This document shows positions 31,437 to 36,510 of a DNA stretch of 64,000 bases, piece by piece. Source of the stretch: Rhizosphaericola mali (GTDB lineage: Bacteria; Bacteroidota; Bacteroidia; Chitinophagales; Chitinophagaceae); contig NZ_CP044016.1 of the NCBI RefSeq assembly GCF_004337365.2, forward strand, positions 496,001-560,000. Reading direction: 5' to 3'. The notes below the pieces were generated by a model that was given only the letters and a program-made list of their open reading frames with translations, searched no databases and was not told where the DNA came from. The translations under genes and the position numbers were made by a program. The first letter of the stretch is position 1. Each line of letters begins with the position of its first letter.

Positions 31437-31472
31437 AAAAGATCAAATTATTGTGAGATAATTTGATCTTTT
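31437..31472 (+). terminator. Terminator after the DUF294 gene
   Basis: A perfect 15-bp stem (AAAAGATCAAATTAT and complement) with a 6-nt loop; the right arm ends in TTTT. It isolates the threonine operon from upstream transcription. Confidence 0.85.
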
Positions 31473-31558
31473 GTTCTGTAAATTAGTGAATTGTTAGATT
31501 TTGTAAAATGTTTTGGTTGTTAATGAACTTTTAATATACCTTAGCGGAAGTTTAGCAA

Positions 31559-31648
31559 ATGACAAATAGTAGTTTACATATTATCACAAAAAATACGACT
31601 ATGATAGTTTCTTCTATCATCACAACTACTATTATTATTACCCTGTAA
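31559..31648 (+). CDS. thrL: Threonine operon leader peptide (Thr/Ile-rich)
   Basis: A 29-codon ORF from ATG 31559 to TAA 31646-31648, 108 bp before thrA. Its product has 8 Thr and 8 Ile, clustered at the end (SSIITTTIIIT). Threonine and isoleucine are the end products that repress thrABC in E. coli through the ThrL leader peptide, which is likewise Thr/Ile-rich (established). A second in-frame ATG at 31601 would give a 15-residue form that keeps the Thr/Ile run. Transcription attenuation by ribosome stalling is inferred; the symbol is by analogy. Confidence 0.8.
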   Translation: MTNSSLHIITKNTTMIVSSIITTTIIITL

Positions 31649-31664
31649 AGGGTAACAAATTTTT
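31638..31664 (+). terminator. Candidate attenuator hairpin overlapping the leader stop codon
   Basis: TTACCCT (31638-31644), loop GTAA (31645-31648), AGGGTAA (31649-31655), then CAAATTTTT. The leader TAA lies in the loop. A ribosome at the Thr/Ile codons or at the stop would mask the left arm. The stem is short and the U-run begins 4 nt after it, so strength is modest. Confidence 0.5.
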
Positions 31665-31756
31665 ATATCATCCTCTGGGCTATACGCCGTTTTCATTCAA
31701 AGAAATTTATACGAAAAGCATATTTCCATGCTGAATAGTTTTACTAATAATATTTT

Positions 31757-34198
31757 ATGCAAGTTTTAAAATTTGGTGGTTCCTCTGTTGCAAATGCCGA
31801 AAATATAAAGAAAGTCGTTCAAATCGTTACACATAACAACTATGCAAAACAAATTGTAGTTGTTTCGGCTATGAAAGGTGTTACCGACAAGCTCTTACAA
31901 CTAGGAGATAAGTCTTGTCAACCTGAAAAAGAATACGAAAAAATCTTACAAAGTCTTACTACACAGCATATCGAAGCTGCAAACGAACTATTGCCTGTAG
32001 CAACTAGAAGTGGCTGTCTCAGTATGATCATGCAAATCTTCAACGAACTAGAAGATATTTGTGAAAGTGTATTTCGTTTGCAAGAATTATCTCCTGCAAC
32101 GAAAGATAGAATCGTTGGTTATGGTGAATTACTTTCAAGTAAAATAATTTCGGCTTATTTGGAATCTATCAAGGTGAAAAATGTCTGGATGGACTCCAGA
32201 GCGGTGATTGAAACAAATAATAATTATAGTTATGCTGCTGTAGATTTTGAAAAAACAAATGTCAAAATTAAAGATTTTCTTAAATCCAATCCAGCTAATT
32301 TATATATGGCGCCTGGTTTTATAGCTCGCGGTAATAATGGACATGCGACCACATTAGGACGTGGCGGATCAGACTATTCTGCCGCTATATATGCCGCAGC
32401 AGTAGATGCGCCCTCTTTAGAAATCTGGACGGATGTTTCTGGTATGATGACAGCTGACCCACGTTGGGTGCCAAGCGCCAAACCAATTCCTATGATTTCG
32501 TATAAAGAAGCAATGGAATTGTCTCATTTTGGTGCTAAGGTGATCTATCCGCCAACGATTTTACCTGTTATGCAAAAGAATATTCCAGTTTGGGTAAAAA
32601 ATACTTTTGCTCCAGAGGATAAAGGAACTTTAATGAATGCAACGGCATCACATGAAGGAAATATAGTTTCGGGTATTTCTAGTATTACAGAAGTTGCTTT
32701 ATTGAGTTTGGAAGGTGGTGGGATGGTTGGTATTCCTGGTTTTTCTAAAACATTATTCGAAGCATTAGCATTTGCAAAAGTCAATGTAATCTTAATCACG
32801 CAAGGTTCTTCTGAATATTCTATTTGTGTAGCGGTCAATGCGGTAGATGCCTCTAGGGCAAGCGAAGCCATCAATAAAGCATTTGAATTTGATATAGTCA
32901 ATAATAAAGTTTTTCCAGTAGTTGAAGAGGATAATTTATCTATAGTTGCCTTAGTGGGAGATAAGATGAAAAGCCATCCAAATATTAGTGGAAAAATGTT
33001 TGGAACATTGGGTCGCAATGGTATCAATGTACGAGCAATAGCACAAGGTTCATCTGAAAAAAATATTTCGGCAGTCATTTCTAATGCAGATGTGAAAAAA
33101 GCAGTAAACGTTTTGCATGAAGCATTTTTCGAGTCTGTGTACAAACAATTAAATGTATATGTCGTTGGTACGGGTAATGTGGGTGGTCGTTTACTTGAGC
33201 AAATACATCATCAATTAAAATACTTAAAGAAAAATTTAAGTGTTGAAGTACGAATCGTGGGACTAAGTAATAGTCGTAATATGTTGATTAAAGAAAATGG
33301 AAGTGTTTCTTTAACTAAGTGGAAAGAAGAATTAGAGGCAGCTGAAGCAGGTGATTTGGATACATTCGTTAATGCAGTAATTTCTAAAAATTTACGTAAT
33401 TCTATAGTCGTGGATGTTACTGCCAATGCCGCCGTTGCTGCTGTTTACGGACGATTACTTTCCAAAAGTATTGCAGTTGTGGCTTGTAATAAGATCGCCG
33501 CATCGTCTAGTTATGCGTCTTATGCACAACTAAAATCTTTGTCACACGAGTTTAATGCTCCATTTTTATTTGAAACCAATGTTGGCGCAGGATTACCAGT
33601 TATTGGAACGTTGAATGATTTGATAAGAAGTGGCGATGTTGTCAATAAAGTGCAAGCAGTTCTTTCAGGTACTTTAAATTTTGTATTCAATAACTATGAT
33701 GCAACCAAACCATTTGCTGAGGTTGTAAGACAAGCACAAGCGGAAGGATATACAGAACCAGATCCTCGTTTAGACTTGGGTGGTACGGATGTTATGCGCA
33801 AGATTATGATCTTAGCTAGAGAAGCTGGTTATATTTTGGAAATGGATGAAATTAAAAATAAATCCTTTTTGCCTGCATCTTGTTTTGAAGGAAGCGTAGA
33901 AGATTTTTACAAAGAGATGGAAAAACATGAAGCTCATTTCAAAGCATTATACAACGCTGCTGCTAAAGAAAATTGTAAATTAAAATTTGTTGCAGAATTT
34001 GTAAATGGAAAGGCTTCCGTTGGTTTACAACATATTCCTGCAGATTCAGATTTTTATCATTTATATGGTAAGGATAATATTGTACTTTTTTACACAATGC
34101 GTTATCCTGATCAACCTTTAGTAGTAAAAGGTGCTGGAGCGGGTGCAGACGTTACTGCGAGTGGTGTATTTGCAGATTTAATTAAAGCAGGAATCTAA
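31757..34198 (+). CDS. thrA: Bifunctional aspartate kinase / homoserine dehydrogenase
   Basis: An 813-residue fusion. The kinase domain starts with VLKFGGSSVANAEN and contains YGELLSSKII and GRGGSDYSAAIYA. Two ACT-type regulatory regions follow (about 310-460), where threonine feedback would act. The homoserine dehydrogenase half begins at VYVVGTGNVGGRLLEQI (NAD(P)-binding), with TNVGAGLPVIGTLNDLIRSG (catalytic Lys region upstream in NKIAASS) and GYTEPDPRLDLGGTDVMRK. It does the first and third steps from aspartate to threonine. First gene of thrABC; thrB starts 25 bp later. Confidence 0.97.
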   Translation: MQVLKFGGSSVANAENIKKVVQIVTHNNYAKQIVVVSAMKGVTDKLLQLGDKSCQPEKEYEKILQSLTTQHIEAANELLPVATRSGCLSMIMQIFNELEDICESVFRLQELSPATKDRIVGYGELLSSKIISAYLESIKVKNVWMDSRAVIETNNNYSYAAVDFEKTNVKIKDFLKSNPANLYMAPGFIARGNNGHATTLGRGGSDYSAAIYAAAVDAPSLEIWTDVSGMMTADPRWVPSAKPIPMISYKEAMELSHFGAKVIYPPTILPVMQKNIPVWVKNTFAPEDKGTLMNATASHEGNIVSGISSITEVALLSLEGGGMVGIPGFSKTLFEALAFAKVNVILITQGSSEYSICVAVNAVDASRASEAINKAFEFDIVNNKVFPVVEEDNLSIVALVGDKMKSHPNISGKMFGTLGRNGINVRAIAQGSSEKNISAVISNADVKKAVNVLHEAFFESVYKQLNVYVVGTGNVGGRLLEQIHHQLKYLKKNLSVEVRIVGLSNSRNMLIKENGSVSLTKWKEELEAAEAGDLDTFVNAVISKNLRNSIVVDVTANAAVAAVYGRLLSKSIAVVACNKIAASSSYASYAQLKSLSHEFNAPFLFETNVGAGLPVIGTLNDLIRSGDVVNKVQAVLSGTLNFVFNNYDATKPFAEVVRQAQAEGYTEPDPRLDLGGTDVMRKIMILAREAGYILEMDEIKNKSFLPASCFEGSVEDFYKEMEKHEAHFKALYNAAAKENCKLKFVAEFVNGKASVGLQHIPADSDFYHLYGKDNIVLFYTMRYPDQPLVVKGAGAGADVTASGVFADLIKAGI

Positions 34199-34223: not shown

Positions 34224-35150
34224 ATGAATGGTTGTACAGTCGCTGCACCAGGTAGTGTAGCCAATTTGGTTTGTGGATTTGATGTGTTGGGTTTGTGCTT
34301 ATCTGCACCAGCAGATTTGATGGATTTTAGAATTTTGGACGAACCAAAATTAATAATTAAAAGTGCGGATGGTTATCCTTTACCTGAAAATCCTGCTGAA
34401 AATACAGCAGGAGCTCCTATTATCGAAATGATGAAAGAATTGGATAATACTATTGGATTTGAAATTACTATACATAAGAAAATTAAGCCCGGAAGTGGCA
34501 TTGGATCTAGTGCTGCAAGTGCTGCGGGTGCGGTGGTTGGTGTAAACCATCTATTAGGTAATAAATTTACCAAAGAACAATTGATTGAGTTCGCTATGTT
34601 TGGAGAAAAAGTAGCAAGTGGCGTAAAACATGCGGATAATATCGCGCCTGTTGTTTATGGTGGTGTTACGCTAATTCGCTCAGTTGCTCCTTTAGATATT
34701 ATTCCTTTGAAATCGCCCAATCTGCATGTGACTATCGTACATCCACAGATTGAAGTGCGCACTGCTGATGCAAGAGCTATTCTTCGTAGAGATGTGTCTT
34801 TGAAATCGGCTATACGCCAATGGGGAAATGTTGGAGGCTTAGTTGCCGGTATTTTGATGGAGGATAATGCGTTGATTGGTCGTTCTTTGCAAGATGAAAT
34901 CATAGAGCCTGTTCGTAGTATTTTAATTCCAGGTTTTAAGGATGTTAAATTAAAATGTATAGCTGCGGGTGCTTTAGGTGGTGGTATATCCGGCTCTGGA
35001 CCATCTATTTTTATGTTGAGTGAAACGGAAGAAATTGCTAAGAATGTGGAAAAGGTAATGCAAGATGAATTTACGAAATTAGGAATAGACTATTATACGT
35101 ACGTTACATTTATTAATAAAGAAGGAGCTAAGGTTATCAACGAATTTTAG
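34224..35150 (+). CDS. thrB: Homoserine kinase
   Basis: A 308-residue GHMP kinase that phosphorylates homoserine. ATP-binding loop PGSGIGSSAASAAGAV near residues 89-104, N-terminal APGSVANLVCGFDVLG substrate region, and C-terminal GALGGGISGSGPSIFML (GHMP motif 3). The length is normal. It lies between thrA and thrC with gaps of 25 and 14 bp. Confidence 0.96.
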   Translation: MNGCTVAAPGSVANLVCGFDVLGLCLSAPADLMDFRILDEPKLIIKSADGYPLPENPAENTAGAPIIEMMKELDNTIGFEITIHKKIKPGSGIGSSAASAAGAVVGVNHLLGNKFTKEQLIEFAMFGEKVASGVKHADNIAPVVYGGVTLIRSVAPLDIIPLKSPNLHVTIVHPQIEVRTADARAILRRDVSLKSAIRQWGNVGGLVAGILMEDNALIGRSLQDEIIEPVRSILIPGFKDVKLKCIAAGALGGGISGSGPSIFMLSETEEIAKNVEKVMQDEFTKLGIDYYTYVTFINKEGAKVINEF

Positions 35151-35164
35151 TTAAAATAGAAATT

Positions 35165-36463
35165 ATGCAATATTATAGTTTAAATAAAAAAGCGCCTAAT
35201 GTAGATTTCGCATATGCGGCTGTACATGGTCAGGCGCCAGATAAAGGTTTATATTTTCCTGAATTTGTTCCAAAATTATCGCAAGAATTTTGGGATGCAT
35301 TTCCAACCATGTCGAAAGAAGAAATTGGATTTGCAGTAATGAAAAATTTTGTAGGGGAAAGTATTCCGAATAATGAATTGAAAAGAATCGTTGCTGAAAC
35401 TATAAATTTTGATTTTCCTTTAGTGAAAATTGATGAAAATATTTCTTCTCTTGAATTATTTCATGGCCCAACTTTAGCGTTTAAAGATGTTGGTGCAAGA
35501 TTTATGAGTCGTTGTTTGGGGTATTTTAATAAAGGAAAAAAAGAAAATACGACCGTTCTCGTTGCTACGTCTGGTGATACTGGTGGTGCTGTTGCGAATG
35601 GTTTTCTAGGGGTGGAAGGAGTGAACGTAGTTATTTTATATCCTTCCGGAAAAGTTAGTCCTATACAAGAACTACAATTGACTACTTGCGGTCAAAATAT
35701 TACAGCACTCGAAGTGAATGGTAGTTTTGATGATTGTCAAGCGATCGTTAAACAAGCATTTATGGATGAGGATTTGAATAAGCATTTAACGTTGACATCT
35801 GCCAATTCTATAAATGTGGCACGTTGGTTGCCTCAACAACTATATTATTTTTTCGCAGTACAAAAGTGGTTTAAAAAATACAATGAAGCTCCAATTATCT
35901 GTGTGCCAAGTGGTAATTTTGGAAATATTTGTGCAGGTATTATGGCACAGCAAGCGGGTCTTCCTGTGAAACATTTTGTTGCTGCTTGTAATGCAAATGA
36001 TGAGGTGCCTAAGTATTTTGCAACAGGAAATTATAGTCCGCAAATGGCTGTTGCAACTATTTCCAATGCCATGGATGTAGGGGATCCAAGTAACTTCGTT
36101 CGAATTTTAGAAATATTTAATGCTGATTATAATTCTATTACAGAGATCATCAGTAGTGTAAGTGTGGATGATGAAACTACAAAAGCTACTATTAAAGAAG
36201 TTGAAAGTCGTACAAACTATGTATTAGATCCGCATGGCGCTGTTGCATACAAAGCGTTGTCTGACTATATTAATGCAAATGGAGGAAATGGCTTTTTACT
36301 TGAAACGGCTCATCCCGTTAAATTTCCAAATGTAGTAGAAGAAGTTATCGGAAGACAGATCCCTATTCCAGAAGATGCAAAGTACTTATTTGAAAAGAAA
36401 AAGGAAAGTACTGTAATCAATGCCGATTTTGATGCGGTGAAAAAATGGCTGTTGAGTAAATAG
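35165..36463 (+). CDS. thrC: Threonine synthase
   Basis: A 432-residue PLP enzyme that converts O-phosphohomoserine to threonine. Lys107 in FHGPTLAFKDVG is the PLP lysine. ATSGDTGGAVANGF holds the phosphate, and VPSGNFGNICAGIMAQ is the glycine-rich PLP-phosphate loop. It is the E. coli/fungal-type ThrC with an N-terminal extension before the PLP Lys. Last gene of the operon, with a terminator 20 bp downstream. Confidence 0.96.
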   Translation: MQYYSLNKKAPNVDFAYAAVHGQAPDKGLYFPEFVPKLSQEFWDAFPTMSKEEIGFAVMKNFVGESIPNNELKRIVAETINFDFPLVKIDENISSLELFHGPTLAFKDVGARFMSRCLGYFNKGKKENTTVLVATSGDTGGAVANGFLGVEGVNVVILYPSGKVSPIQELQLTTCGQNITALEVNGSFDDCQAIVKQAFMDEDLNKHLTLTSANSINVARWLPQQLYYFFAVQKWFKKYNEAPIICVPSGNFGNICAGIMAQQAGLPVKHFVAACNANDEVPKYFATGNYSPQMAVATISNAMDVGDPSNFVRILEIFNADYNSITEIISSVSVDDETTKATIKEVESRTNYVLDPHGAVAYKALSDYINANGGNGFLLETAHPVKFPNVVEEVIGRQIPIPEDAKYLFEKKKESTVINADFDAVKKWLLSK

Positions 36464-36483: not shown

Positions 36484-36510
36484 AAGCACGGATAAATTCC
36501 GTGCTTTTTT
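36484..36510 (+). terminator. Terminator of thrABC
   Basis: AAGCACGGA-5-TCCGTGCTT followed by TTTT: a 9-bp stem. It covers the earliest possible start of the next frame (36501), which supports ATG 36549 for the ABC ATPase. Confidence 0.85.

Follow-up and report, generated by a model that had tools for sequence, protein, structure and literature searches.

The window analysed here, a stretch of 64,000 nucleotides of the Rhizosphaericola mali genome, carries the threonine operon thrABC, preceded by a short open reading frame (ORF) and a series of RNA features (Table 1). The ORF starts with ATG at 31559, encodes the peptide MTNSSLHIITKNTTMIVSSIITTTIIITL and stops with TAA at 31646–31648; 8 Thr and 8 Ile codons are found among its 29 codons, and 108 bp separate its stop codon from the thrA start codon at 31757. 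These figures reproduce those of a first-pass annotation of the same DNA. A short ORF rich in codons for the pathway product thus lies directly 5′ of the operon, as is the case for leader-peptide attenuators.

Matches to the known Bacteroidota −33/−7 promoter consensus define a putative promoter for the leader. If it is correct, transcription would start at about 31550 and the 5′ untranslated region would therefore be very short. Boxes resembling the −7 element precede most leaders of relatives, at a median distance of 41 nt upstream of the first copy of the AUAUYAY motif described below. Of the 159 leaders, 44 carry an operator-like sequence, ACTAACnnTTGTTATA, close to the −33 region, against 5 for a control pattern (examples are loci L093, L100 and L118); a transcription factor may bind the thr promoter there. 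At nucleotides 31440–31473 the window reads AGATCAAATTAT-TGTGAG-ATAATTTGATCT followed by TTTG. This strong hairpin lies between the upstream gene and the promoter of the leader and, judged by eye, is likely the terminator of that gene.

Table 1 Features of the thr leader and operon in the window
Feature	Position	Strand	Basis or remark
Putative promoter	31512..31544	+	TTTG (31512-31515) and TACCTTAG (31537-31544), Bacteroidota -33/-7 type
Leader peptide ORF, 29 codons, Thr/Ile run at end	31559..31648	+	conserved in >150 thrA leaders
Helix P1, 5' strand, next to leader start codon	31565..31574	+	pairs with 31624-31633
Motif copy 1, CATATTATC	31577..31585	+	ATAT 19 nt after first base of start codon
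Hairpin 0 within leader (ATGATAG / CTATCAT)	31601..31620	+	folding
Helix P1, 3' strand, inside sensor codons of Thr/Ile run	31624..31633	+	folding
Hairpin 1 (hp1), UUACCCU-GUAA-AGGGUAA, stop codon in loop	31638..31655	+	folding; compensatory pairs
Motif copy 2, TATATCATC (family consensus CATATYAYC)	31664..31672	+	fixed spacing behind hp1
GGGC...GCYG conserved block, possible short hairpin 2 (GGC/GCC)	31677..31689	+	conservation
thrA, bifunctional aspartate kinase/homoserine dehydrogenase I	31757..34198	+	NCBIfam NF006959, 992 bits, cutoff 726
thrB, homoserine kinase	34224..35150	+	family search
thrC, threonine synthase	35165..36463	+	family search
Ordinary intrinsic terminator, end of thr operon (comparison)	36484..36506	+	stem then UUUUA

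By chance, a mean of 0.017 Thr/Ile-rich ORF ends is expected per dinucleotide-Markov copy of the window. The window itself holds four, the thr leader included; one of the other three was checked (24821) and proved to be a coding gene read in antisense. Chance does not account for the leader, since it is conserved in more than 150 non-redundant leaders. In a sample of 80 thrA loci fetched from related genomes, titled mostly Chitinophagaceae, a Thr/Ile-rich leader occupies the same place in more than 50, ending mostly in Thr-Leu-stop or Thr/Ile-Arg-stop. The 159 non-redundant thrA leaders used for the anatomy of the element contain 5.9 Thr and 2.3 Ile per last 12 codons; each position from −9 to −2 is a Thr/Ile codon in 80 to 96 percent of them, and the share drops sharply at −10, which bears out the annotation as a Thr/Ile leader peptide. 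Some relatives are without a leader: at L030, an ilvA-like threonine ammonia-lyase gene ends directly 5′ of thrA, an apparent leader loss with operon fusion, and L042, L046, L050, L060 and L066 have ends similar to L030 by sequence.

We searched genomes with a covariance model built from hp1 and the downstream block. The own genome gave a single match at E < 0.01 (E 1.9e-12); a second, at E 0.23, was attributed to chance. In the family, 168 of 296 genomes gave a match, one each. The order gave matches in 57 of 299 genomes, nearly all of which belong to the family, and the class in 9 of 395. Weak matches outside the family (L139, L240–L244 and L087) were dismissed as chance. thrA lies downstream on the same strand in all 207 loci collected. 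Because of this family-wide occurrence and the invariable presence of thrA downstream, together with the stop codon placed in a hairpin loop and the compensatory changes described next, control of the thr operon by a Thr/Ile leader peptide is very likely on comparative grounds.

The hairpin hp1 takes in the last Thr codon together with the stop codon; in it, UUACCCU (31638–31644) pairs to AGGGUAA (31649–31655) in 7 bp around a GUAA loop (−9.1 kcal/mol alone). In the window the leader as a whole folds with z = −3.6; hp1 reaches a mean z of −4.0 in family leaders and forms with P = 0.98 in unperturbed full leaders of relatives. The stop codon falls within the loop in 122 of 125 leaders, so the placement noted by the first-pass annotation extends to the family. 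An alignment of Chitinophagaceae thrA upstream regions, which that annotation had proposed, reveals the conserved Thr/Ile run and compensatory changes in hp1: 91% of cells are paired and 18 changes are double-sided, a result reached by none of 500 shuffles, and at pair 3, 105 leaders have C-G and 22 have U-A with no exception. From the aligned sequences, hp1 is maintained by compensatory changes.

The same annotation had called hp1 terminator-like and followed by a U-run. A U-run is present in the window; it does not directly follow the stem and is offset in the tail CAAAUUUUU, whereas the terminator after thrC has its UUUUA behind the stem. At least 5 U within 8 nt 3′ of the stem are found in only 7 of 127 relatives, so that the U-run intrinsic terminator that classical attenuators place between leader and operon is rare here. 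Since the U-run is not conserved, the case for hp1 as an ordinary intrinsic terminator is weak. According to published reasoning (PMC4833913), ~12 nt beyond the stop codon are covered and a terminator has to fold clear of them; combined with the missing U-run, this again speaks against an ordinary terminator.

Comparison of own and swapped pairing across the 159 leaders supports hairpin 0 (z −5.4; mean folding z −1.8) and helix P1 (z = −4.8) as predicted structures. Local folding of hairpin 2 is no better than that of shuffles, and the sequence 3′ of its block is variable across the family. Despite the shuffle result, hairpin 2 is likely, because most leaders lacking the standard GGGC block can form an alternative hairpin at the same place. 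Other matches to the GGGC pattern in the own genome are scattered. Pairing of this block with the hp1 5′ arm is enriched (z −5.7) yet weak (−3.65 versus −8.9 kcal/mol), and a CCC-to-UCC change in the arm is not accompanied by any change in the block; a partner role was rejected. Pairing tests, folding and the family leaders yielded no partner able to compete for either hp1 arm, and hence no long alternative antiterminator, as the first-pass annotation had supposed; the mutually exclusive antiterminator and terminator of classical attenuators were not found for hp1.

Two copies of the AUAUYAY motif stand at fixed distances; these, hairpin 0 and helix P1 had been overlooked in the first pass. 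Measured from where the hp1 3′ arm starts (GGG), ATAT of copy 2 begins at exactly 15 nt in 105 of 127 leaders; in the window it lies 19 nt behind the first base of the stop codon. This copy pairs with its neighbours less than shuffled sequence does. Of the 159 leaders, 88 have copy 1 close to their start, compared with 6 and 8 for the controls, and in 64 of these 88 ATAT stands at +19 from the start codon. In other families the motif lies 19 to 21 nt from the start codon. A peptide-level cause of copy 1 (His-Ile-Ile) was ruled out: the motif is in another reading frame in 14 of the 88 leaders, and in family f75, where the frame differs, it reads Tyr-His. Copy 1 is frame-independent and therefore a nucleic-acid rather than a peptide signal. 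The motif is no general feature behind start codons, given that, among 424 other ORFs, it occurs 17 to 21 nt behind the start codon in only 7, and apparent pairing with another leader region was either avoided or due to the AUAU palindrome.

We folded the leader under the constraint of a ribosome footprint extending from −18 to +12 relative to the A site. With the A site on the stop codon or on codons −1 to −5, hp1 is masked (P = 0); at codon −6 it is partly masked (P = 0.38); at −9 to −7, the first hungry codons met by the ribosome, it stays formed (P ~0.95). RNA structure that depends on ribosome position, as expected of leader-peptide attenuators, is found in silico. The first-pass proposal that a stalled ribosome covers the hairpin holds from the stop codon to −5 and partly at −6; it fails at −9 to −7, so that covering accounts for some of the sensor codons and not for others. 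According to this model, hp1 could be masked directly, with no competing antiterminator.

Leaders in other families (f33, f36, f43, f61, f70 and f75 are numbered family labels, L-numbers denote loci) vary this design. In f75, f43 and f33, ACCCC-loop-GGGG(U) is followed by CATAT 14 to 17 nt further. The f75 stop codon lies in the loop (TP-stop) or at the stem end (TPLG-stop), and because of the latter the stop-in-loop arrangement is not universal. In f36 the helix is inverted (ACGGG-GUAA-CCCGU) with the stop codon in the loop, and CATAT follows at exactly 15 nt in three members. Several loci offer additional pairings. In L269, L339 and L276 of f36, GGGGUGA (5′ arm and stop codon) is complementary to a downstream UCGCCCC (CCGCCCC in L276), and L276 also bears the U-run terminator AGGCUUUUGCCUUUUUU. 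In L297 and L298 of f70, GGGCUGC of the hp1 3′ arm finds its complement, GCAGCCC, ~50 nt further on, which makes these loci candidates for a mutually exclusive fold. In L305, L306 and L309 of f75, copy 2 AUAUAA(U) can pair with UUAUAU just 5′ of a U-tract, possibly an AU-rich terminator. Classical thr leaders are found in f61 (L322, L323, L327, L328, L333 and L354): they share a Thr/Ile leader before thrA with the present locus, whereas their stop codon is followed by a strong terminator, a GC-rich hairpin with a U-run. The leader end GGAGGAAG of L333 and L354 matches the terminator 5′ arm and is likely an antiterminator, a feature absent here. The layout, which had been deemed unusual for Bacteroidota, is thus common in the family and recurs in others, while f61 of the same class has a classical attenuator.

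Thr leader attenuation is classical, and Vitreschak and colleagues are said to have predicted attenuators in Bacteroidetes in comparative work of 2004. The E. coli Thr leader (Rfam RF00506) shares with the present element a Thr/Ile-rich peptide before thrABC and the logic of ribosome position; it differs in that here the final codons, with the stop codon, form part of the hairpin, the AUAUYAY pair is added and a conserved U-run terminator is missing. The RF00506 covariance model did not match the leader even at E 10. No Rfam 15 family reached its gathering score in the window, and the best matches in the leader region were far below cutoff. A sub-threshold Hatchet ribozyme match in the window (15 bits, cutoff 51) was discarded, being absent from eight of eight relatives. 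Bacteroid-trp, which we take to be a leader attenuator, gave no match above cutoff in the own genome or in 40 relatives, and a relation to it was rejected for this reason. It is likewise a Bacteroidota cis-regulatory RNA before an amino-acid operon, although the operon differs (RF01692; Weinberg 2010, PMC2864571). Leader-peptide attenuation is suspected in amino-acid operons of Flavobacterium psychrophilum in the excerpt of PMC9723704 used here, which gives neither a thr leader architecture nor an AUAUYAY-like motif. A thr leader architecture with hp1 and AUAUYAY was not found in the literature searched, which included few subscription journals. What appears to be new is the hp1/AUAUYAY architecture, which is in no Rfam family; Thr leader attenuation itself was already known.

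We consider the best explanation to be a ribosome-read leader regulator of the threonine operon in which hp1 and AUAUYAY act on the polymerase, an account that we give about an even chance of being right. The ribosome would sense charged tRNA-Thr and tRNA-Ile: a ribosome dwelling in about the last six codons would prevent hp1, and hp1 would form in its absence. hp1 and AUAUYAY would most likely be a single unit acting on RNA polymerase. When the 3′ end of the RNA has reached the motif, hp1 would end about 11–12 nt upstream, the known spacing for hairpin-stabilised pausing, and the unit could serve as a pause or termination signal without a U-run. We favour such a signal because the spacing between hairpin and motif is rigid, and we lean towards hp1 as the 'off' state, relieved by a slow ribosome. 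Against this explanation, codons −9 to −7 leave hp1 unmasked, and a ribosome ending on the stop codon covers it; the pause reading also fails to explain both motif copies, since copy 1 has no hairpin before it. Somewhat short of an even chance, we tentatively propose a U-run-free ribosome-read attenuator, a second kind in Bacteroidota, with a stop-codon hairpin locked 15 nt from AUAUYAY, the motif being read by RNA polymerase or a trans factor and the copy at +19 timing the ribosome.

The masking of hp1 over about the last six codons is real, and the hairpin of the window, with its tail CAAATTTTTA, scores terminator-like, as would suit an intrinsic terminator simply covered by a ribosome stalled on the Thr/Ile codons; this is nevertheless unlikely, as so few relatives have the U-run, the conserved motif behind hp1 is left unexplained and a terminating ribosome would cover hp1 too. 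A slightly better, still rather unlikely, alternative reverses the polarity: hp1 and AUAUYAY would be an 'on' signal that protects or modifies the polymerase or blocks Rho, an early stall allowing hp1 and a finishing ribosome covering it, so that transcription ends downstream through Rho or another device. Stalls at −9 to −7 do keep hp1, a ribosome on the stop codon or up to 5 codons before it prevents hp1, and the leader RNA of the window is poor in G; however, the family has no conserved downstream off-device, given the shuffle result for hairpin 2 and the variable sequence behind it.

The two copies of AUAUYAY, each ~19 nt 3′ of a codon on which ribosomes dwell (start or stop) and independent of frame, could also be recognised in single-stranded form by a nuclease or RNA-binding protein, with the ribosomes at these codons shielding or exposing them. 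This post-transcriptional reading, with which the unpaired state of copy 2 agrees, appears improbable: the rigid 15-nt spacing to hp1 exceeds the need of a loose shield, and we know of no protein with an AUAUYAY site. Least probable of all is a classical thr attenuator with a hidden alternative antiterminator. Such attenuators do occur in f61 of the same class, and the f70 hp1 3′ arm has its complement of 7–8 nt downstream, yet hp1 forms almost completely in the full leader, its best rival pairing, with the GGGC block, is far weaker than hp1 itself, and a U-run terminator is missing.

Attenuation in Bacteroidota has hardly been studied, and the element described here is widely conserved, with exact spacings and parts that can be mutated singly. 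It is likely a new RNA family, in which AUAUYAY is a candidate signal, either for the pausing of transcription in Bacteroidota or for a factor acting in trans, and classical and non-classical thr leaders coexist within one class.
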